Source: Nocardioidaceae bacterium (GTDB lineage Bacteria > Actinomycetota > Actinomycetes > Propionibacteriales > Nocardioidaceae). From it: a stretch of 64,000 nt of DNA. Both the position numbers and the translations under genes were made by a program. The notes under the pieces are model-generated. The model was not told the DNA's origin, did no database searches, and worked only from the letters and a program-made list of their open reading frames with translations. The stretch lies in contig JAUJOD010000002.1 of assembly GCA_030447865.1 (NCBI GenBank), positions 255,881-319,880 on the forward strand, written 5' to 3'. This document shows positions 38,909-61,081 of the stretch, one piece after another. How positions within the stretch are numbered: position 1 is the stretch's first letter; each line of letters begins with the position of its first letter.

Positions 38909-40027
38909 ATGCGCCAGCTCAAGCTCGTGGGGTTGACTGATGATGGCCGACAGGTCATCTTCGTCGATGACGCGGGTGTGCAGTTCGGGGCGCCTGCAGA
39001 CGACAAGTTGCGTGCGGCGCTTCGCGGCGACCGGCCGCGGCTCGGCCAGTTGGAGATCGAGATGGACAGCGCCTTGCGCCCCCGTGACATCCAAGCCCGT
39101 ATCCGTGCCGGGGAGACCCCAGACGCGGTGGCGGCGGTGGCCCAGGTCTCCGTCGACAAGATTTTGCCGTTCTGCATCCCAGTGCTGGCCGAACGCCACC
39201 ACATCGCGGAGTTGGCCCGGCGCAGCCACGTGCGCCGCAAGAACGTCGAGGGGCCGGCTCGCCGCCTCGCGGAGGTGGTGACCGAACGGTTGCGCAGTCG
39301 GGGGGTCAACCCCGACTCGGTCGAGTGGGACGCCTGGCGCCGCGATGACGGCCGCTGGGCGGTGCAGGGCACCTATCTCTCCGGCGAGCGGGAGCGGACC
39401 GCGTTGTTCGCCTTCGACGTGATGGGGCGCTACAGCGTTGCTGAGGACGACGAGGCCAGGTGGCTGACCGGTGAGCGTCAGTCCACCCGCAAAGGCCCTC
39501 AGCCGCGCGAAGGCGGCCGCGGTGGCGAACGTCGCCTGGCAGCCGTACCGAGTGGCAGTGACCTCCTCAGTCTGGCCGACGACGGCGACGGCGACGACGA
39601 CGCGAATGACGACCTCACGGCGGTGGTGCGGGCGATATCGGAGTCCGGTGAAACACAGCCACAACCCCCGATCACCGTGGACACCGACGGCTACCCCCGA
39701 CCAGACACTGGAGATGACGCCGCCGAGCTGCCTGCGGAGGCCAACGAACCCGCCGAAATGGCTTCGGTCCCGGACTCAACGGTGGTGGACGACGACGATC
39801 CCGCCGCGCTCACCTCGGCAGACGAGCACGCTGGTCCGTCCACCGAGCCGGCCAGCGAGCCGGTCACTGAGTCGGTGACGGGTCGCAAACGCCGACCGGG
39901 CAAGCGACCCAGCGTGCCCAGCTGGGACGAGATCATGCTGGGTGGCGCCGGCGGTGGCGGCGCCGGCGGCGACAGTGGTGCTGGTGGCGGTGAGGACAGT
40001 GGCAGGGGTAAGGACCCGGGCCACTGA
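38909..40027 (+). CDS. sepH: Septation protein SepH
   Basis: Cell-division regulator that stimulates FtsZ assembly in actinobacteria. 372 residues. The N-terminal DUF3071 domain starts MRQLKLVGLTDDGRQVIF and includes a helix-turn-helix stretch near LRPRDIQARIRAGETPDAVAAVA. A long acidic, low-complexity linker follows, then the conserved C-terminal motif KRPSVPSWDEIMLG. A Gly-rich tail ends the protein. ATG 38909 has GGAAGG upstream. Divergent from hemH over 217 nt with a GC-rich, partly palindromic stretch and no clear promoter. Position beside hemH matches Streptomyces. Confidence 0.92.
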   Translation: MRQLKLVGLTDDGRQVIFVDDAGVQFGAPADDKLRAALRGDRPRLGQLEIEMDSALRPRDIQARIRAGETPDAVAAVAQVSVDKILPFCIPVLAERHHIAELARRSHVRRKNVEGPARRLAEVVTERLRSRGVNPDSVEWDAWRRDDGRWAVQGTYLSGERERTALFAFDVMGRYSVAEDDEARWLTGERQSTRKGPQPREGGRGGERRLAAVPSGSDLLSLADDGDGDDDANDDLTAVVRAISESGETQPQPPITVDTDGYPRPDTGDDAAELPAEANEPAEMASVPDSTVVDDDDPAALTSADEHAGPSTEPASEPVTESVTGRKRRPGKRPSVPSWDEIMLGGAGGGGAGGDSGAGGGEDSGRGKDPGH

Positions 40028-53431: not shown

Positions 53432-54118
53432 TCACCGGATGAGCGGTAGCCTTCCGACCGCTTCGCCGAGCTCATCGCGCTCCCCGGCGCCGAGGGCGCG
53501 CCGTCCGGTCAGCCCCCGAGCCAGCGCCACATCGGCCCAGTGACCGGGGGCTGGCCGTCCCAACAGGCCCTCAAGCGTGCGACGCGTGAGCTGCAGCCCG
53601 GTCGCCGGTGGTGGCAGGCCGTCAGAGAGAGCGACGACAAGGTCGAGGTGGTGCAGGGTCGCCTCGACGACGAGGGTCTCGAAGAAGTCCGTGGCCGTGA
53701 GGACATGGCCTTGAGTGGCCACCCGGGCGGTCGGGTCGAAGCGCCGGGCGGCAGCGACGGCTGCGCACGCGGTGTGGGTCCAGTGCCGCACAAGGGCGGA
53801 GGGTTGTTCGTAGGCTTGCGCGCTTCGCCGGACGAACGCCGCGCTGGCCTCCCGCGCACGCTCATCGTCCCCGTCTTCGGCGGCGTACGCCCGCCAGTAC
53901 GAGACGGCGTTGGTGTCGGCATCCTGCTTGACGGGGTCGGCGAGGGCGATCAGGCAGCGCTGGGCGTCGAGCATGATGTGGAAGAGCAGTGCGTCAACCG
54001 GCCACGCCTCGCACCCCGTCGGGCGGGCAAAGTCCTCGGGGACGAGTTCCGCGGCGACGTCAGTGATCGCCCTGTAAGACTCCCCAAGCGCGGCAGCGGT
54101 GTACTGCGAGCAAGGCAC
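53432..54118 (-). CDS. DinB/mycothiol-dependent maleylpyruvate isomerase-like protein
   Basis: DinB-fold protein of 228 residues of the MDMPI_N type (TIGR03083-like), a mycothiol-linked enzyme family. Metal-ligand-like His in LLFHIMLDAQR and VEATLHHLDL. GTG 54118 starts MPCSQYTAAALGE. A diverged copy of its 5' end, including 25 bp upstream, lies at 58034-58086 on the other side of the ABC transporter genes, which suggests the transporter island inserted into or beside a former paralogue. Confidence 0.78.
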   Translation of the reverse strand: MPCSQYTAAALGESYRAITDVAAELVPEDFARPTGCEAWPVDALLFHIMLDAQRCLIALADPVKQDADTNAVSYWRAYAAEDGDDERAREASAAFVRRSAQAYEQPSALVRHWTHTACAAVAAARRFDPTARVATQGHVLTATDFFETLVVEATLHHLDLVVALSDGLPPPATGLQLTRRTLEGLLGRPAPGHWADVALARGLTGRRALGAGERDELGEAVGRLPLIR

Positions 54119-54409
54119 AGCTAGATCCTGCCAAATGCGGCTCCCTTCTCCTCCACGCCGCCTGGGTCGGCTTCCGCACCGCAGCAGGCTGGGAACGTTG
54201 CCAAGCAGACACGATCTCTGCGGACGGTACAGATGGACGCGGAGTCGCCCCTAGGTGGCCAGCCAGCGGATTGCCCCGATTCCCGGGTGAGCCGCCAGTG
54301 ATCCGGCAACTTACTCCGAGCCAGACCTAACCTCTACGCCAATCCGCTGACTCTCGCCGCTAGCTAATTGAACGGCATCAGCATTGGAACCGTCCGGCGC
54401 GCGGATCAC

Positions 54410-54421
54410 CGTTACGTAACG
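54410..54421. promoter_or_regulatory. 12-bp palindrome upstream of the ABC exporter
   Basis: CGTTACGTAACG is a perfect palindrome about 85 nt before the permease start. Shape of a dimeric regulator site; no regulator gene is visible nearby. Confidence 0.4.
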
Positions 54422-54459
54422 CTCTCGCCGAGCATCGACCACTGCTGCGGGTGGGTCGG

Positions 54460-54465
54460 TACAGT
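54460..54465 (+). promoter_or_regulatory. Putative -10 hexamer of the ABC exporter operon
   Basis: TACAGT, with TCGACC 19 nt upstream as a weak -35. It leaves a 40-nt leader containing GGAAGGGGG before the GTG at 54506. Confidence 0.3.
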
Positions 54466-54505
54466 CTTGCTGGCCCGATCACGTGCGCGGGGAAGGGGGC
54501 CCAGC

Positions 54506-57277
54506 GTGTTGCAGGGACTCGCCTTCACTTGGGCCCGGTTGCGGCATCAGTGGGGCAGAAGTGCGGCGGTTGTCTTGAGCTTGGCGATCGCGGTCACTGC
54601 ATTTGTGGTGCTCACGTCGACGGCCCGTGAGTCAAGACTAGTGACCGTCCGCACGGTGAACGAGAACTATCGATCAGCCTATGACATCCTCGTCCGGCCA
54701 AAGAACAGTCAAACGGATTTGGAACGATCTGCCGGGCTGGTTCGGCCAAACTACCTCTCGGGGATCTTCGGTGGGATCACCTGGCAGCAGCTACGGGAGA
54801 TACGCCAGATTCCTGGGACGTCCGTGGTGGCACCGATCGCTATGATCGGGCAGGTCCTGCAGACGACTGACGTTCCGGTAGACGTTAGTTCGAGTTTGGG
54901 CGGTGGACGGGACGCGGTCGGCTTCACCTCCTCGTTCGTCAGTGCGCGTGGACAAGCGCGGGCAGCAGGCCCCGCAGGTTATGTCTATGTGACACCCAAC
55001 AGGCTCACGTGGGGCCCGCTGACGGCTCCTTCGCAGTCCTTCGGAGCCGTGGAGCGGCAGGGCCACCGAAGTGTCACCACCTGCCGGCATGCTGCGCCAG
55101 CGCGGCGTTACGGTTCGCCGTTTGAAGCTGCTCGGCTCTGGCAAGTCAGCTGCTGGTCCCGCGTCAGCGGTGATCCGAATGGGGAATGGTCGCCCCTGGG
55201 AAGCTACCGCTACCCCGCATACATCACCGTGTCGATCCCGGTCACTGTTGCCGCAGTGGACCCGGCCGCTGAGGCCGCGCTCGCTGGGCTCGACGGAGCG
55301 GTCGTGGCTGGTCGATACCTCCGTCAGTCAGATCGGCCCGAGCGATTGCCGGCACCAGCCAACGACAGTGTCGCAGTCCCGGTGATCGCGAGTTCCCGCC
55401 CGGTGGTCAACGAGAGGTTGATCGTCAAGGTGCACGAGCTGCCGCGACGAGTGGTCGAGGCGATACACCGAGGGCGGGGCCCTAGCTCGATCCGCCACCG
55501 GATGGCAAGGTTGACCGATCGTCCCGTCCGCATCATCCAGGTGCGTGCGGGCGAGATCGTCAACTCATGGCTGGACGCCGCACGTCTCAACGCTCCAGCT
55601 GTGGACGGTTACTGGGTCCCGGGGCAGGTGGACTACGCCGGCGCAGCCGGTGGAGTGCTGCACCCTCAGCCCACCCGGAATGGCGAACGGACGTGGGCCT
55701 CGAACCTGGGCCGTGGCAGCGGTGGATTTGTCGCGGTCCCTCCGGACGCCCAGGGCACCGCCTATCGAGAACTGTCACCGCATCGGCTGATCAACTCAAC
55801 GACGCGCAAGCACGGCGGCTTGTCGATCCCGGTGCTGGACATCGTTGGCACCTTCGACCCGTACCGAATCCGTGGGTTCTCGGCCCTGTCGCAGGTACCC
55901 CTGGAGACGTACCGTGCCCCAACCGCGACACCGGCCAACCGCGCCACCGAGCGCGCTTTAGGTGGTCAGCCACTGCTGCCGAACATGAATCCGGCAGGAT
56001 ACCTTCAGTCACCGCCCCTGCTGCTGACCACGTTGCGCGGATTGAGGGCATTCCATAACCCCGCTGCATTCACAAGACAGAACACGCCGAAGGCTCCTAT
56101 CAGTGTGGTCCGGGTCCGGGTCGCTGGAGTGACTGGAGCGGACCCGGTGAGCCGTGAACGCATCAGGTTGGTCGCACAACGCATTCAGGAGTCGACCGGA
56201 CTGCACGTCGACATCACCATCGGTTCCTCCCCGGCGCCTCAAGAAGTTCGGCTGCGGGATAGGCCCCTGGGCACACCGCCGTTCACCGTCGTGGAGAACT
56301 GGGTGAAAAAGGGCGTTGCCACGCAGGTAATCGCCGCCATCGACCGCAAGAGCCTTGCCCTTTTCATATTGATCCTGGTTTCGAGCGGGCTGGCCGTGGC
56401 CAACGCCACCAACGCGTCCGTTCGGGCGCGCCGTCGGGAACTAGGTGTGCTTGCGTGTCTGGGCTGGCGCAGACGGACCTTGATTCAGGCAGTGTGCAGC
56501 GAACTACTGATCCTTGGGCTGACCGCTGGCATTATCGGGAGCCTGGCCTCGATCCCGGTGTCCCACGTCTTGGGCTCACCGGTGGGGGCTCCTCGCGCCC
56601 TGTTGGCGGTCCCGGTCGCCCTGCTCGTCGTCTTCATCTCCGGTGTGGCTCCGGCGCTGTGGGTCGGCAGCATCGAGCCAATCTTCGCCGTCCGCCCACC
56701 GGGCTCTCCCCGATTGCCGAAGATTCCGCTGAGGGGAGTCGTCGCCGTAGCGATTTCTGCGTTGATCCGCACTCCCGGACGCTTCATCGCTGCGGCGCTC
56801 AGCGTGTCCCTAGGGATAGCCAGCCTGATTGTCCTGCTGTCGATCGCCCTGGCTTTCCAGGGCGATGTGGTGGGAACCCTGCTCGGAGATGCAGTCGCGC
56901 TCCAGGTCCGCACCCCAGACATCGTGGCGGGCGCATTCATTGCTTTGCTCGGCATCGTCACCGTCCTTGACCTCATTTACCTGGATCTGCGGGAACAGGC
57001 ACCGAAGTACGCCTCCTTGCAGGCCACCGGGTGGACCGACGCCCGGCTCATGGGGCTGCTGGTGTGGCAGGCCGCCCTGACTGGTTTCTGTGGCGCTCTT
57101 GTAGGTGCTGCCGGTGGCATCGCGGCCGTCAACTGGCTCGTCTCGCTGAACCAAGACGTCATCAAAGTCGCCGCTGCCGTCGCAGTAGCCGCCGTCATCA
57201 CGTCTGCTGTCGCCGCGCTCATACCGGCGCTAGCCATCCGCCGACTACCCACCGCGCGGCTGCTGGCAGAGGAGTAG
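54506..57277 (+). CDS. ABC transporter permease with large extracytoplasmic domain
   Basis: FtsX/MacB-type permease of 923 residues from GTG 54506, preceded by GGAAGGGGG. One hydrophobic segment near residues 14-36, then an extracytoplasmic region of roughly 550 residues, then a cluster of hydrophobic segments from about 605 to the end, with a conserved cytosolic LGVLACLGWRRRTLI and ASLQATGWTDARLMGLL coupling-helix pair. This is the two-FtsX-domain layout. Ectodomain of unknown fold with several Cys. No signature for a substrate: peptide, lipid or antibiotic export is possible. Four nt separate it from the ATPase gene. Confidence 0.8.
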   Translation: MLQGLAFTWARLRHQWGRSAAVVLSLAIAVTAFVVLTSTARESRLVTVRTVNENYRSAYDILVRPKNSQTDLERSAGLVRPNYLSGIFGGITWQQLREIRQIPGTSVVAPIAMIGQVLQTTDVPVDVSSSLGGGRDAVGFTSSFVSARGQARAAGPAGYVYVTPNRLTWGPLTAPSQSFGAVERQGHRSVTTCRHAAPARRYGSPFEAARLWQVSCWSRVSGDPNGEWSPLGSYRYPAYITVSIPVTVAAVDPAAEAALAGLDGAVVAGRYLRQSDRPERLPAPANDSVAVPVIASSRPVVNERLIVKVHELPRRVVEAIHRGRGPSSIRHRMARLTDRPVRIIQVRAGEIVNSWLDAARLNAPAVDGYWVPGQVDYAGAAGGVLHPQPTRNGERTWASNLGRGSGGFVAVPPDAQGTAYRELSPHRLINSTTRKHGGLSIPVLDIVGTFDPYRIRGFSALSQVPLETYRAPTATPANRATERALGGQPLLPNMNPAGYLQSPPLLLTTLRGLRAFHNPAAFTRQNTPKAPISVVRVRVAGVTGADPVSRERIRLVAQRIQESTGLHVDITIGSSPAPQEVRLRDRPLGTPPFTVVENWVKKGVATQVIAAIDRKSLALFILILVSSGLAVANATNASVRARRRELGVLACLGWRRRTLIQAVCSELLILGLTAGIIGSLASIPVSHVLGSPVGAPRALLAVPVALLVVFISGVAPALWVGSIEPIFAVRPPGSPRLPKIPLRGVVAVAISALIRTPGRFIAAALSVSLGIASLIVLLSIALAFQGDVVGTLLGDAVALQVRTPDIVAGAFIALLGIVTVLDLIYLDLREQAPKYASLQATGWTDARLMGLLVWQAALTGFCGALVGAAGGIAAVNWLVSLNQDVIKVAAAVAVAAVITSAVAALIPALAIRRLPTARLLAEE

Positions 57278-57280
57278 GAC

Positions 57281-58006
57281 ATGGGCGCCCACACTGACCG
57301 GTCGATGGCCGAGGGAACCGTCGTCCTAGAAGACGTGACCAAGCGCTACCGGCTCGGCGACGGCTCCTGGCTGACCGCGATCGACTGTCCCAACTTTGTC
57401 GCCGAATCTGGGTCCTCCACCGCGTTGGTCGGTCCATCAGGTTCAGGTAAATCGACACTGCTTCATCTAGTCGGCGCGATCGACAAGCCTGACCGGGGCA
57501 GGATTACCGTGGGTGGGCTCGACCTCACGGCACTCAACCGCAGGCAACTCGCCGACTACCGGTCAACGATCGGATTCGTGTTCCAGCAATACCACTTGCT
57601 GCCCGCGATGTCCGCCCTCGACAACGTTATGGCACCCCTCGTCGGACGAAAGGTTTCCTACGACCGCAAACAGCGGGCACTCGAGCTACTCACTTCGGTG
57701 GGACTAGCTGACCGAGCGCACGCCGTGCCAAGCCAGATGTCCGGCGGCCAACAACAACGCGTGGCTATCGCCAGGGCATTGATCAACAACCCAAGACTCT
57801 TGCTTGCCGACGAGCCCACCGGCAACCTGGACGCCACAACTGCCGCAGGGATCATCGAACTGCTACGTGGTCTCCAAGCCGAGCGGGGCATGACCATGAT
57901 CGTCGGCACCCACGATGAGGCAATTGCCAAGAGGTGCGACACCGTGGTGCCGATTGAACAGGGCGCGCTCGATGCCGACCCGGGTCGCCGGCTTTCTTCG
58001 GGTTAA
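57281..58006 (+). CDS. ABC transporter ATP-binding protein (MacB/LolD-type)
   Basis: Nucleotide-binding subunit of 241 residues: Walker A GPSGSGKST, Q-loop FVFQQYHLLP, signature MSGGQQQRVAIARAL, Walker B LLLADEPTGNLD and H-loop THDEA. LolD/MacB group, which pairs with FtsX-type permeases, here the gene just upstream. Complete and not disrupted. Beyond its stop lies debris and then recombinase genes, so the pair looks like transferred cargo. Confidence 0.92.
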   Translation: MGAHTDRSMAEGTVVLEDVTKRYRLGDGSWLTAIDCPNFVAESGSSTALVGPSGSGKSTLLHLVGAIDKPDRGRITVGGLDLTALNRRQLADYRSTIGFVFQQYHLLPAMSALDNVMAPLVGRKVSYDRKQRALELLTSVGLADRAHAVPSQMSGGQQQRVAIARALINNPRLLLADEPTGNLDATTAAGIIELLRGLQAERGMTMIVGTHDEAIAKRCDTVVPIEQGALDADPGRRLSSG

Positions 58007-58033
58007 TCAGCGGCCATCCAACGAGAGGGCGTC

Positions 58034-58086
58034 GCGCGGCGGCGGTGTACTTCGGGCAAGGCATGGCTAATCCTGCGAATGCGACT
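58034..58086 (-). pseudogene. Relic of the 5' end of a DinB/MDMPI gene
   Basis: Aligns with 54089-54142 with about five mismatches and two single-base gaps: same start region (MPCPKYTAAAR versus MPCSQYTAAAL) and the same upstream bases (AATGCG...AGGAT). Only about 11 codons survive. Indicates a second, lost copy. Confidence 0.6.
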
Positions 58087-58089
58087 GCC

Positions 58090-58155
58090 TCAGGCGTCGA
58101 TCGCGTCGGGGTCGAGTTCGTACGCGCCTTGCACGATGAACCTGTTGCACCGGGT
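58090..58155 (-). pseudogene. C-terminal fragment of an unidentified protein
   Basis: On the minus strand a frame ends NRFIVQGAYELDPDAIDA then TGA at 58090-58092. It reads like a real protein tail but has no start and I do not recognise it. It may be debris from a gene cut by the island. Confidence 0.3.
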
Positions 58156-58189
58156 TGTGCTACCCCGACGCGGACCACCGACGCGCCGG

Positions 58190-58241
58190 ATGCCGCTCGG
58201 ACAGCAGCATTATGCCGGTGATCCGTGCGCGGCTTGGTCAT
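58190..58241 (-). pseudogene. Truncated third gene of the recombinase set (DUF6262/TnpC-like)
   Basis: A start codon at 58241 overlaps the stop of the second recombinase as ATGA. The first residues, MTKPRTDHRHNAAVRAAS, resemble the start of the small DUF6262/TnpC-type proteins that follow paired recombinases; the frame then runs into unrelated sequence. Confidence 0.4.
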
Positions 58242-59482
58242 GATGCTTCGTCTTCCGTGAGACCGGTGAGGAGTTTGTCGAAGAGGTTGGCTCGGTGGTG
58301 TTGGCCCTTGGCTTCAGCGTCGTCGTGCTGGGCTTGCAGGGTGGGCCGGAACTCGATGCTGGTCTGGAAGAAGGTGCAGGTTTCGCAGATCGCCTCGAAA
58401 GCGCAGTCGAGCTCGGCTGGTCGGGTGCAGTGGCCGTTGCCGAGTAGGCGGTGGTGCTCGCGGCGCAGTCGGGCCATCTTCGGTCCGATGGTGTCGGCGG
58501 GCAGAGGCTCGGCTTGCGCGTAGAGGGCGTCGACCTGGTCGGTGACGGCGAAGTACTCATCTGCGACGGTGCGGTTGGCGATCTTGGCGTAGCGCAGGGT
58601 CATGTCCATGCTGCGGTGGCCGAGCATCGCCGCGATCGCTTCCAGGCTCATTCCGCGGTTGATGGCCTGGGTGGCCAGGGTGTGCCGCAGCTGGTGGGGG
58701 TGGATGTGCGGCAGTCCGGCGGCGGCGCCAGCCTTGTTCAAGAACCGGGTGACTGTGTGCCGGTCCAACGGCCGGCCGTTCTCTCCCGGGAGCAGCAGCG
58801 GATGATCTGCTGGGACGTGGGCGGCGCGGTAGTCGTCGATCAGCTGCACCAGGTGTGGGTGCAGCGGCAGGTAGCGGTCCTCGCGGAGCTTGCCGACCGG
58901 GACGTGCAGCCAGGGCGCGGCGCCGATCTGGACCACGGCGTCAGCGGGGAGCGCAGTGAACTCGCTGACCCGCAGCCCGGTGCGCAGGAGAACCTCGACG
59001 GTGACCCTCACCAGCAGCCGCTTGTCGTTCGCAGCGGTGCGCAGCAGCTTCGCGGCCGCGGCGTCGTCGAGTGCCTTGGGCAGCGGATGGTCCTGTCGGG
59101 GCAGGTCGCCGGGGAACATCGGCACCCGTAGTGGCGCCTCGTCCCAGCCCCATTCGTCGATGCGGACGAAGAACATCCGCAAGGTGCCGAGCCGGTGCGC
59201 CAGGGTGGCGGTGGTGACCCGGGCCTTGTTCTGTCCGGGTCGTTTGGCCAACCAGGGCTTGTAGTCCTCGACGTGCCGCCGGGTCACCTGCGCGATGGAG
59301 GTGACCTCGGGGGCGGTCTCGACGAGGAACCCAGCGAACGCTCGCAGTGCCTGGTCGGTGTTGTTCACGCTGCCCGGTCTGAGCACGCAGGCGATCTGCT
59401 CGAGGTAGCGACGCATCGGCTCGGTGATCTGCGGGCGCGCCGCCAGTTCCGGCCAGGTGGGCAGCAGCAGCGGCCCGCTCAC
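58238..59482 (-). CDS. Tyrosine recombinase, TnpB-like (second of pair)
   Basis: Phage-integrase-type recombinase of 414 residues. Core-binding domain to about 140; catalytic RTGLRVSE, HPHQLRHTLAT (H-x-x-R) and LGHRSMDMTLRYAK with the nucleophile Tyr. A C-terminal extension has Cys at HCTRPAELDCAFEAICETC, a likely zinc-binding element seen in Tn554-type TnpB recombinases. GTG 59482 overlaps the first recombinase stop (GTGA). Intact; may move the adjacent exporter genes. Confidence 0.88.
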   Translation of the reverse strand: MSGPLLLPTWPELAARPQITEPMRRYLEQIACVLRPGSVNNTDQALRAFAGFLVETAPEVTSIAQVTRRHVEDYKPWLAKRPGQNKARVTTATLAHRLGTLRMFFVRIDEWGWDEAPLRVPMFPGDLPRQDHPLPKALDDAAAAKLLRTAANDKRLLVRVTVEVLLRTGLRVSEFTALPADAVVQIGAAPWLHVPVGKLREDRYLPLHPHLVQLIDDYRAAHVPADHPLLLPGENGRPLDRHTVTRFLNKAGAAAGLPHIHPHQLRHTLATQAINRGMSLEAIAAMLGHRSMDMTLRYAKIANRTVADEYFAVTDQVDALYAQAEPLPADTIGPKMARLRREHHRLLGNGHCTRPAELDCAFEAICETCTFFQTSIEFRPTLQAQHDDAEAKGQHHRANLFDKLLTGLTEDEAS

Positions 59483-60588
59483 CGGGCGCTCCCACCGATA
59501 GTGTTCGGCTGGCCGGCGTAGAGCTGGGCGTCGAGCACCTCGGCGGCCTTCCGATACTGAGAGGCCAGCCAGTCATCGGCCAGATGCAGGTAGATCCGGG
59601 TGGACTCGATCGAGGCATGCCCGGCCTGGGCCTGAACCGCCTCCAGCGCCATGCCGGCCTCCCGGAGACGGGTCAGGCAGGTGTGCCGCAGCTCGTGACA
59701 GGTCGCATGCGCGAGGCCGGCGCGGCGTCGGGCGCCGGTGAGTACCTCGTCCAAGCCCTTGGCGGACAAGGGTCTCCCACGGTTGGGTCCCTTGAGCACC
59801 ACGAACACCCGGTCGGTGTCCGCGCCGGCTGGCCGCTCGGTCTCCAAGTAGGCCGCGACCGCGGTGAAGAACCGCGTCGAGACCGGGACCAGTCGCTGAT
59901 GTCCGCCCTTGCCGTCGGCGATGAACACTCGCCGTTCGGCGACCCGTAGGTCCTCCAGCCGCAAGCCCAGCACCTCACAGCGGCGCAGCCCACCGAACAC
60001 CATCGCGGCCACCATCGACTGGTCCCGGTGCCTGCGCAGTGCGGCGGTCAACGCATCCACCTCGGCCGGGGTGAGGATCCGCGGCAGCCTGCGGGTCCGT
60101 CGAGTCAGTGGCACCCCCTGCCCCGGCCGGGACCGCTCCCGTCGTGTCGGCAGACCCCGGAGCACCGGGTTCGCGGTGACGTCTCCACGAGCCTGCAGGT
60201 AGCCGAAGAAGCCGGAGATAATCGACAACCGTCGCGCCACCGTGCTGATCGCCACCCCGCTGTGCTCCTCGCCCCCATCCACCGGCTGCACGATCGCTCC
60301 GTCCCTGCGGCCGGTGCGCTGGGCAGTAATGAACCCGAGCACGTCGGCCGACCGCACCTCCCTTGGTGGCTTACCGACGACGGTAAAGAACACCCGCAGG
60401 TCATACGCGGCGGCCAGCACCGTGTTCGGTCGACACCGGCCCTCCAAGAACTCCAGGTAGTCGTCGACCAACGGCATCGAGAGCCGCACCACCGGTTCGC
60501 CGGACGGTCCTCGAGAACGGACAGGCACGGATCGGACAACGACATCTCTAGGCCTCCAGCTCCATCGACAGGCAGCCACACGGCTCAT
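59479..60588 (-). CDS. Tyrosine recombinase, TnpA-like (first of pair)
   Basis: Recombinase of 369 residues from ATG 60588, which has AGGACA upstream; other starts at 60639 and further in are possible. SAM-like core-binding domain about 40-150, then GGLRRCEVLGL (first Arg), CHELRHTCLTRL, AGHASIESTRIYLHL with the Tyr nucleophile. Two recombinases with overlapping ends, then a truncated DUF6262-like gene, copy the TnpA-TnpB-TnpC design of Tn554-like elements. Element ends were not located. Confidence 0.87.
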   Translation of the reverse strand: MSRVAACRWSWRPRDVVVRSVPVRSRGPSGEPVVRLSMPLVDDYLEFLEGRCRPNTVLAAAYDLRVFFTVVGKPPREVRSADVLGFITAQRTGRRDGAIVQPVDGGEEHSGVAISTVARRLSIISGFFGYLQARGDVTANPVLRGLPTRRERSRPGQGVPLTRRTRRLPRILTPAEVDALTAALRRHRDQSMVAAMVFGGLRRCEVLGLRLEDLRVAERRVFIADGKGGHQRLVPVSTRFFTAVAAYLETERPAGADTDRVFVVLKGPNRGRPLSAKGLDEVLTGARRRAGLAHATCHELRHTCLTRLREAGMALEAVQAQAGHASIESTRIYLHLADDWLASQYRKAAEVLDAQLYAGQPNTIGGSAR

Positions 60589-60657
60589 CGAAATGTCCTG
60601 AAAGATCACCGGCATAACGAGCAGATCCGGATGGGCCACGATTCTTGATGGGTGCCG

Positions 60658-61014
60658 TTAGTAGTGCCTCGCAGCGCCTGACCGACGCCACCATGTCGCC
60701 AGCAATCCAGCCGCAATCAGGGCAAGCGCCGCGGTCACCACGCCTAAGACTCGTGCGTCATCTGCGTCTTCCTGGTGGCCGCTTGTCGCGGCCGCGAGCC
60801 ATATGAGGCCAGCGACGGCGGCGAGGAGAGCAGCGCCAGTTCCGCACTTCATGAGGCCACGATTGCGTTGGCGGCGCTCGGCGAGCAAGGGCCGTCGCCA
60901 CAGGACTTCTGCCGCTTGGTTCCTGGCCGCTAGTCCCAAGACGTCCAGGACGACGTACCCAAGGAGGAAAAGAACTGCGAGTCCGACGGTTCCGAGCACC
61001 CCGACGGGCTCCAT
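60658..61014 (-). CDS. Small three-TM membrane protein
   Basis: Membrane protein of 118 residues with three hydrophobic segments (about 7-27, 58-78, 88-107) and a basic middle loop (RRPLLAERRQRNRG). Not recognised. ATG 61014 follows TAAAGT by 6 nt. It lies between parE and the recombinases, on the same strand; GC and codon use are ordinary, so probably chromosomal. Confidence 0.6.
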   Translation of the reverse strand: MEPVGVLGTVGLAVLFLLGYVVLDVLGLAARNQAAEVLWRRPLLAERRQRNRGLMKCGTGAALLAAVAGLIWLAAATSGHQEDADDARVLGVVTAALALIAAGLLATWWRRSGAARHY

Positions 61015-61020
61015 GAGCCC

Positions 61021-61026
61021 ACTTTA
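61021..61026 (-). promoter_or_regulatory. Putative -10 hexamer for the small membrane gene
   Basis: TAAAGT on the minus strand, 6 nt before the ATG at 61014. Confidence 0.45.
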
Positions 61027-61065
61027 GGTCAGACGCGCGGGCATGGATCCGAGGCCACCGTGTGC

Positions 61066-61081
61066 CCGCTCATCGGAGCGG
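61066..61081 (-). terminator. Possible hairpin terminator after parE
   Basis: CCGCTC-CGAT-GAGCGG on the minus strand, 5 nt past the parE stop: a 6-bp GC-rich stem with a 4-nt loop and no U-tract, as in many actinobacterial intrinsic terminators. Confidence 0.4.

Follow-up and report, generated by a model that had tools for sequence, protein, structure and literature searches.

The window, a stretch of 64,000 nucleotides from a Nocardioidaceae genome (contig JAUJOD010000002.1), very probably contains a mobile element of approximately 2.4 kb that is composed of two recombinase genes, A and B, has short terminal repeats, and targets sites of the kind found in integron-like cassette arrays; it would not be the carrier of the exporter next to it. 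No recognizable third gene is present in the window's copy or in 18 of 20 relatives. It also seems on balance probable, as a joint reading, that integron-like cassette arrays with palindromic TGCCG sites, lying to one or both sides of a non-IntI integrase, occur in Nocardioidaceae and in other actinobacteria, and that the A/B transposon is specialized on their sites. The features of the element are listed below.

58192 to 58203, minus strand: target-site arm on the B side (host DNA), part of the joined site together with the core and 60624-60638
58204 to 58209, minus strand: attR core hexamer TGCTGC, probably target-derived
58210 to 58223, plus strand: terminal inverted repeat on the B side, a perfect match to 60604-60617
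58210 to 58241, minus strand: first part of the proposed third ORF, interpreted as a non-coding end of the element
58238 to 59482, minus strand: tyrosine recombinase B, 414 aa, GTG start (PF00589, 5.6e-27)
59479 to 60525 (5' end approximate), minus strand: tyrosine recombinase A, homologous part of approximately 348 aa (PF00589, 1.6e-32)
60604 to 60617, minus strand: terminal inverted repeat on the A side, pairing with 58210-58223
60618 to 60623, minus strand: attL core hexamer TGCTCG
60624 to 60638, minus strand: target-site arm on the A side (host DNA), belonging to the joined-flank site

A repeat search of the window showed that the element is bounded by a perfect 14-bp inverted repeat, whose B-side copy begins 14 bp past the stop codon of B. 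When the terminal 14-mer was searched with at most two mismatches, 0.21 matches were expected in the window and three were found, two of them perfect; the whole genome contained no further perfect copy and two single matches elsewhere with one mismatch each. By its ends, from the repeat to the attL core, the element extends from 58210 to 60623. A previous reading of the same DNA, made from the sequence only, had placed it at 58190-60588, which was close but missed the terminal inverted repeat. The nearest plasmid relative, on pCHL of Nocardioides sp. QY071, aligned with the window over 58207-60630, which is the element and nothing else.

Relatives were drawn from 18 loci in genome contigs, 12 of 294 family genomes, and plasmid matches. 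After removal of duplicates there were 21 loci with a short B (the window included) and nine with a long B, several of them cut by contig ends. Loci representing the same places (L015 and L052, L012 and L054, L017 and L059) were counted once, and L035-L047 (shorter versions of places retrieved at greater length), L031 (25% identity) and L032 (a 71-residue match) were dropped. A repeat similar to that of the window was found 3' of B in 21 of 21 short-B loci, the window included (0 to 4 mismatches), and a similar terminal motif was found in the long-B loci. Genome G110 contained two short-B copies with different flanks and sites, and G289 contained two long-B copies with different flanks. No relative of the element was found in the viral contigs searched. 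The long-B insertions L050, L051, L056 and L060 had similar flanks, as if one kind of target gene were involved.

The two tyrosine recombinases on the minus strand and their GTGA overlap at 59479-59482, as described in the sequence-only reading, were borne out, and both proteins matched PF00589 in a profile search. Protein B was aligned by phmmer with the XerC-like 4a8e and with 9i5v_14 across the R, K, HxxR, H and Y positions, and A was aligned at the same positions with 4a8e and with XerA 5hxy. These positions, which we take to be catalytic, make the active sites of both proteins complete by alignment with known recombinases. Four cysteines lie near the C-terminus of B. The relationship of the pair to Tn554, also proposed previously, was supported by the likeness of B to a protein annotated as Tn554 family transposase B (24.7% identity over 89%, E 6e-16).

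In the short-B loci, the DNA just outside the element ends formed an inverted repeat around TGC. The target is a palindromic core site with arms of about CATCCGCTCA and TGAGCGGGCG around TGCCGA. The attR hexamer was TGCCGA or TGCCGC in 17 of 20 complete hexamers, and the attL hexamer was TGCTTG in 16 of the 17 short-B loci read, the window being the exception (TGCTCG). A search for the target motif in six genomes gave 211 matches with at most three mismatches compared to 111 in the reversed control, a modest excess; the closest matches included clusters with one small gene between sites. It was through this search for the element's own target motif that the cassette arrays were first noticed. 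In three loci (L118, L119 and L120), a tyrosine integrase of approximately 311 aa, or a piece of one, lay beside the site clusters. At 1e-40 this integrase was found in 64 of 294 family genomes, and there was no match in the window's genome at the same threshold.

A 33-bp site matrix was built from 20 loci around close homologs of the integrase. The first version was seeded from two loci found by the element's motif and is not independent of the element; it gave 250 sites scoring at least 12 compared to four in reversed sequence (two with the final matrix), and 237 compared to none at a score of at least 14. A second matrix, for which the only seeds were TGCCG places shortly 3' of array integrases, gave 250 compared to two and 236 compared to none at the same scores, and it removes the circularity of the matrix, not that of the discovery route. 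In 14 of the 20 loci, a site was found no more than 65 bp 3' of the integrase match, and in nine of the 20, sites lay within 200 bp on both sides of the integrase. Depending on the locus, sites on the two sides face the same way or opposite ways. The distance from one same-strand site cluster to the next had a median of 601 bp (n=129), corresponding to the median cassette length. In arrays L154-L173 (e.g., L161, L172 and L160), L118 and L120, the TGCCG sites often occurred as tandem pairs 20 to 22 or 34 bp apart.

Eight alignments of 150 to 3500 bp with at least 88% identity were common to pairs of the 20 array loci, and 14 of their 16 ends lay within 20 bp of a core, compared to 4.6% of random nearby positions; three of the eight concern one cassette. 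Among 253 alignments of any identity from 32 loci, 27% of the ends were within 30 bp of a core compared to 3% in the shifted control, and only eight of the 253 had all four ends (two per copy) within 40 bp of a core. Many of the remaining alignments probably represent parts of the integrase gene. Judged from these alignments, the array cassettes are apparently mobile units bounded by recombination sites. The arrays thus look like integrons in having short gene cassettes bounded by recombination sites and a tyrosine integrase. They are unlike integrons in that the sites are centered on TGCCG, the site orientation across the integrase is the same or opposite, and the integrase is not of the IntI type (48 bits against the integron-integrase model TIGR02249, the cut-off of which is 265).

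When the flanks of an insertion were joined, the empty site could be reconstructed for 16 of 21 short-B and seven of nine long-B loci. On the cassette-site matrix, 13 of the 16 short-B loci reached a joined-flank score of at least 12, compared to none of the seven long-B loci, the low short-B scores being those of L059 (2.8), L019 (4.9) and L028 (9.3). With the independently seeded matrix, for which L030, an internally deleted copy, was added to give 17 short-B loci, the figures were 14 of 17 and zero of seven, respectively. The joined flanks of the window itself scored 19.1 on the first matrix and 19.0 on the independently seeded one. By comparison, scores of at least 12 were reached by two of 16,334 TGC-centered 33-mers in the reversed array loci, two of 2,953 in the reversed window, two of 2,620 in the real window, and none of 1,255 in four array-free loci. 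The flanks of the 21 short-B loci contained 29 further sites in 148 kb, distributed over 12 of the loci (one site in the reversed control), and 27 of the 29 were oriented as the target. The flanks of the nine long-B loci contained one site in 66 kb, compared to four in the control. No further cassette site was present in the 3.4 and 4.2 kb examined on the two sides of the window's element.

An orthologous empty site for the window was not found, as genome G001 differs over the whole stretch, and none was found for L048, L049 or pCHL, where the adjacent DNA was not conserved or a common gene alone matched. In G110, unoccupied sites elsewhere matched the flank of L049 up to the TGC with one mismatch.

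Several other occurrences of cassette-type sites were observed. At 39803 and 9840 of the window, on the minus strand, 33-mers scored 18.5 and 12.9 on the cassette-site matrix and may be chance matches or relics. In the window's genome, a methyltransferase gene lies between two cassette-type sites (L117:4720-5590, contig C5) and adjoins a sigma-factor-like ORF that is seemingly cut short. On pCHL, a TetR/SMR operon is bordered, as a cassette would be, by the target site of the element and by another cassette-type site on the same side; an erm gene is found approximately 4 kb from the element. In G110, an intergenic repeat of approximately 170 bp (L085, L086 and L048:5411-5579; 87 to 95% identity) starts in part at a cassette-type site.

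These junctions would be accounted for if A and B excised and inserted the element at TGC by conservative site-specific recombination. A and B would pair attL with attR at the shared TGC core, the element would leave as a circle with TGCTTG at its junction, and the circle would be inserted into a cassette site, so that attL would keep the TGCTTG of the element and attR the TGCCG(A/C) of the target. Because the core is asymmetric, the orientation of insertion would be fixed. Since the target is the recombination site of cassette arrays, the element would behave as a specialist of such arrays, a habit comparable to that of IS1111-attC elements in integrons. Moreover, as A and B must recognize cassette sites, they may also excise or reshuffle cassettes.

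A stronger form of this idea is that A/B is itself the cassette recombinase of those arrays that have no 311-aa integrase, and that the element is its own integrase cassette. Insertion does require recognition of the cassette core sites, and the array-bearing short-B loci include some outside the one family that, together with plasmids, was searched for the integrase. We nevertheless regard this explanation as unlikely: the element's own ends differ from cassette sites, none of the 20 arrays around the 311-aa integrase that were used for training had an A/B homolog at 1e-30, and nine of the 21 short-B loci had no further site in the examined flank.

Complete integrons are reported to be absent from Actinobacteria (PMC9024848), and it is in this phylum that the element's target led to cassette arrays. 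Should the arrays function as their appearance suggests, cassette capture would have arisen or persisted there with another integrase and another site, and the gathering of accessory genes in actinobacteria would become directly testable. No paper on such arrays or on the target of the element was found in a literature search whose coverage left out bioRxiv and most subscription journals.

The sequence-only reading had described a third ORF, starting as ATGA at the stop of B and cut after about 18 codons, as a truncated DUF6262 gene. The ATGA overlap (58238-58241) is present. In contrast, the frame is not cut at that point; it is open for 129 codons (57852-58241), runs through the terminal repeat, and exits the element after 32 bp. 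The ATGA arises where the stop codon of B follows a TCA codon. Among the 18 relatives that have the ATGA, the frame starting from it was 3 to 393 codons long, so it is not a gene in those. A profile search gave no DUF6262 match in the window's ORF, and DUF6262 (PF19776) had no match in the window's genome; above the cut-off it was found in none of the 10 genomes searched, with one sub-threshold match each in G188 and G176 (23 bits), away from the elements.

The ends of the relatives point the same way. Seventeen of 20 end at the same place after B as the window: 15 end 25 to 28 bp past the B stop (28 bp in the window), and L026 and L028 do so by alignment despite a frameshifted B. The short terminus is therefore not damage of the window's copy. 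The previous reading had itself named similar truncations fixed in relatives, or an intact DUF6262 gene elsewhere in the element, as observations that would speak against a broken gene, and alike ends are largely what the relatives show. The long-B relatives likewise end shortly past B. L018 has 210 bp more after B, with no Pfam match and no recognizable gene there. The sister loci L024 and L025 have 326 bp after B, which hold the following gene.

L024:3090-3392 and L025:7230-7532: third gene of 100 aa with a weak helix-turn-helix match

This gene overlaps the B stop as ATGA, stops 27 bp before the element end, and is 92% identical between the two loci. It had no match to DUF6262 at E 1, was absent from the other 19 short-B loci, and showed no similarity to the window's third ORF. 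A search of 189 sources with the L024 gene returned L024, L025 and one weak 30-residue match (E 0.027).

In a tree of B (32 proteins, 30 of them different, some partial), the 19 short-B rows were set apart by a branch (94/98, slightly below what the tool marks as firm support), with L024 and L025 at the base of this group. The long-B rows (76/83) were neighbors of the short-B rows, and the Tn554-class rows stood apart. The third gene of L024 and L025 means that the two-protein form may not be the original one, and given the basal position of this pair an old loss of the third gene in the remaining short-B elements is possible. Taken as a whole, the loss or truncation of a third gene (tnpC or another) from a Tn554-type element is quite an unlikely account of the window's copy. 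The distant relationship of B to Tn554-family TnpB is in its favor, as are the basal pair with the 100-aa gene and the Tn554-class loci L185 and L186, which have a gene matching PF19776 after B (in L186 with an ATGA-type overlap); the shared ends and the lack of any DUF6262 likeness in both the window's ORF and the L024/L025 gene argue against it.

Judged by sequence relatedness, the pair is distantly related to Tn554, and the class nearest to it is that of the actinobacterial elements without TnpC in Van Houdt et al. 2012 (PMC3414803). As in Famint36/41 of that paper, there is an adjacent pair of tyrosine recombinases without TnpC, found in actinobacteria in repeated copies. The window's B was 51 to 54% identical to B of the long-B loci, its neighbors in the tree. 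One of the loci, L014 (pRhX5), and the record NC_007491 (pREL1 of R. erythropolis PR4) had identical match figures and presumably contain the same element; NC_007491 is listed with the TnpC-less pair (PMC3414803). The large recombinases of that class are given as 611 to 828 aa (PMC3414803), whereas B of the window, with 414 aa, lacks the N-terminal extension of approximately 200 aa (L014, 611 aa) and is below the length of the class. The short-B elements also differ from the long-B elements in their cassette-site target, and the section on the TnpC-less class gives neither ends nor target (PMC3414803).

Tn554 itself resembles the element in its tyrosine recombinase pair, its TnpB-related B and its specific target, and the B protein of the Tn554-class locus L184 has the same C-terminal four-cysteine pattern; imperfect terminal repeats are described for Tn554 too (PMC10214605). 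The element is unlike Tn554 in that it has no TnpC (DUF6262), nor is the third gene of L024 and L025 a DUF6262 gene. SEs and Tn554-related elements are described as taking over a 6-bp footprint from the donor's left flank (PMC10214605); the attL hexamer of the present elements, being constant across insertions, would speak against such copying here. SEs and GInts likewise have tyrosine recombinases and specific sites, and SEs have imperfect terminal repeats, yet each has four conserved genes (PMC10214605) compared to two genes between the ends here. A remnant of a recombinase-in-trio (RIT) element without ritC is very improbable: overlapping recombinase genes and terminal inverted repeats are indeed shared with RITs (PMC3414803, PMC10214605), but the element has two adjacent recombinase genes and not three, no third recombinase was found between the ends in the compared loci (the sole third gene being the 100-aa helix-turn-helix gene), and its 2.4 kb compare to approximately 3.5 kb for RITs (PMC3414803).

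ICEs and IMEs (Int and Xis) aside, the tyrosine-recombinase groups Tn554, RIT, SE and GInt are described with three or four recombination proteins (PMC10214605). Most short-B members appear to manage with two, and the two relatives with a small third gene offer a natural comparison for the role of a helper.

The window's copy may be old, or its assembly wrong. In seven of eight relatives compared, A is open from an ATG located 79 bp from the attL core, which is the annotated start of A in pCHL. In the window, this usual start, in the region 60525-60617, is out of frame through a one-base length difference just after the ATG, and further in-frame starts of A remain. Both core hexamers also deviate from the usual ones. 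With the usual start of A out of frame, this copy may function poorly or not at all, unless the assembly is in error; the present immobility considered in the previous reading may thus hold on this ground, and not through a broken third gene. Intact copies exist outside the window's genome. The full-length further copy that the previous reading proposed to seek was not found in the window's own genome, where the six other matches to B (one of them A) were partial, with 29 to 34% identity.

The proposal that the element moved the adjacent exporter was not upheld, and the element as an exporter-moving integrase was set aside since the exporter lies outside the element ends. It is highly unlikely that A/B is the integrase of an exporter island: the exporter (54368-58006) does adjoin the element within a 7.6-kb stretch that differs between the window's genome and G001, but this stretch (53437-61074) contains both element ends and does not stop at them, the sequences immediately flanking the two ends make up a single target site, and no further perfect copy of the terminal repeat exists in the genome. 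The variable stretch lies between an acetyltransferase gene and a gyrB/parE-type gene. At the same place, G001 has 5.3 kb of other genes, including transposase-like ORFs.
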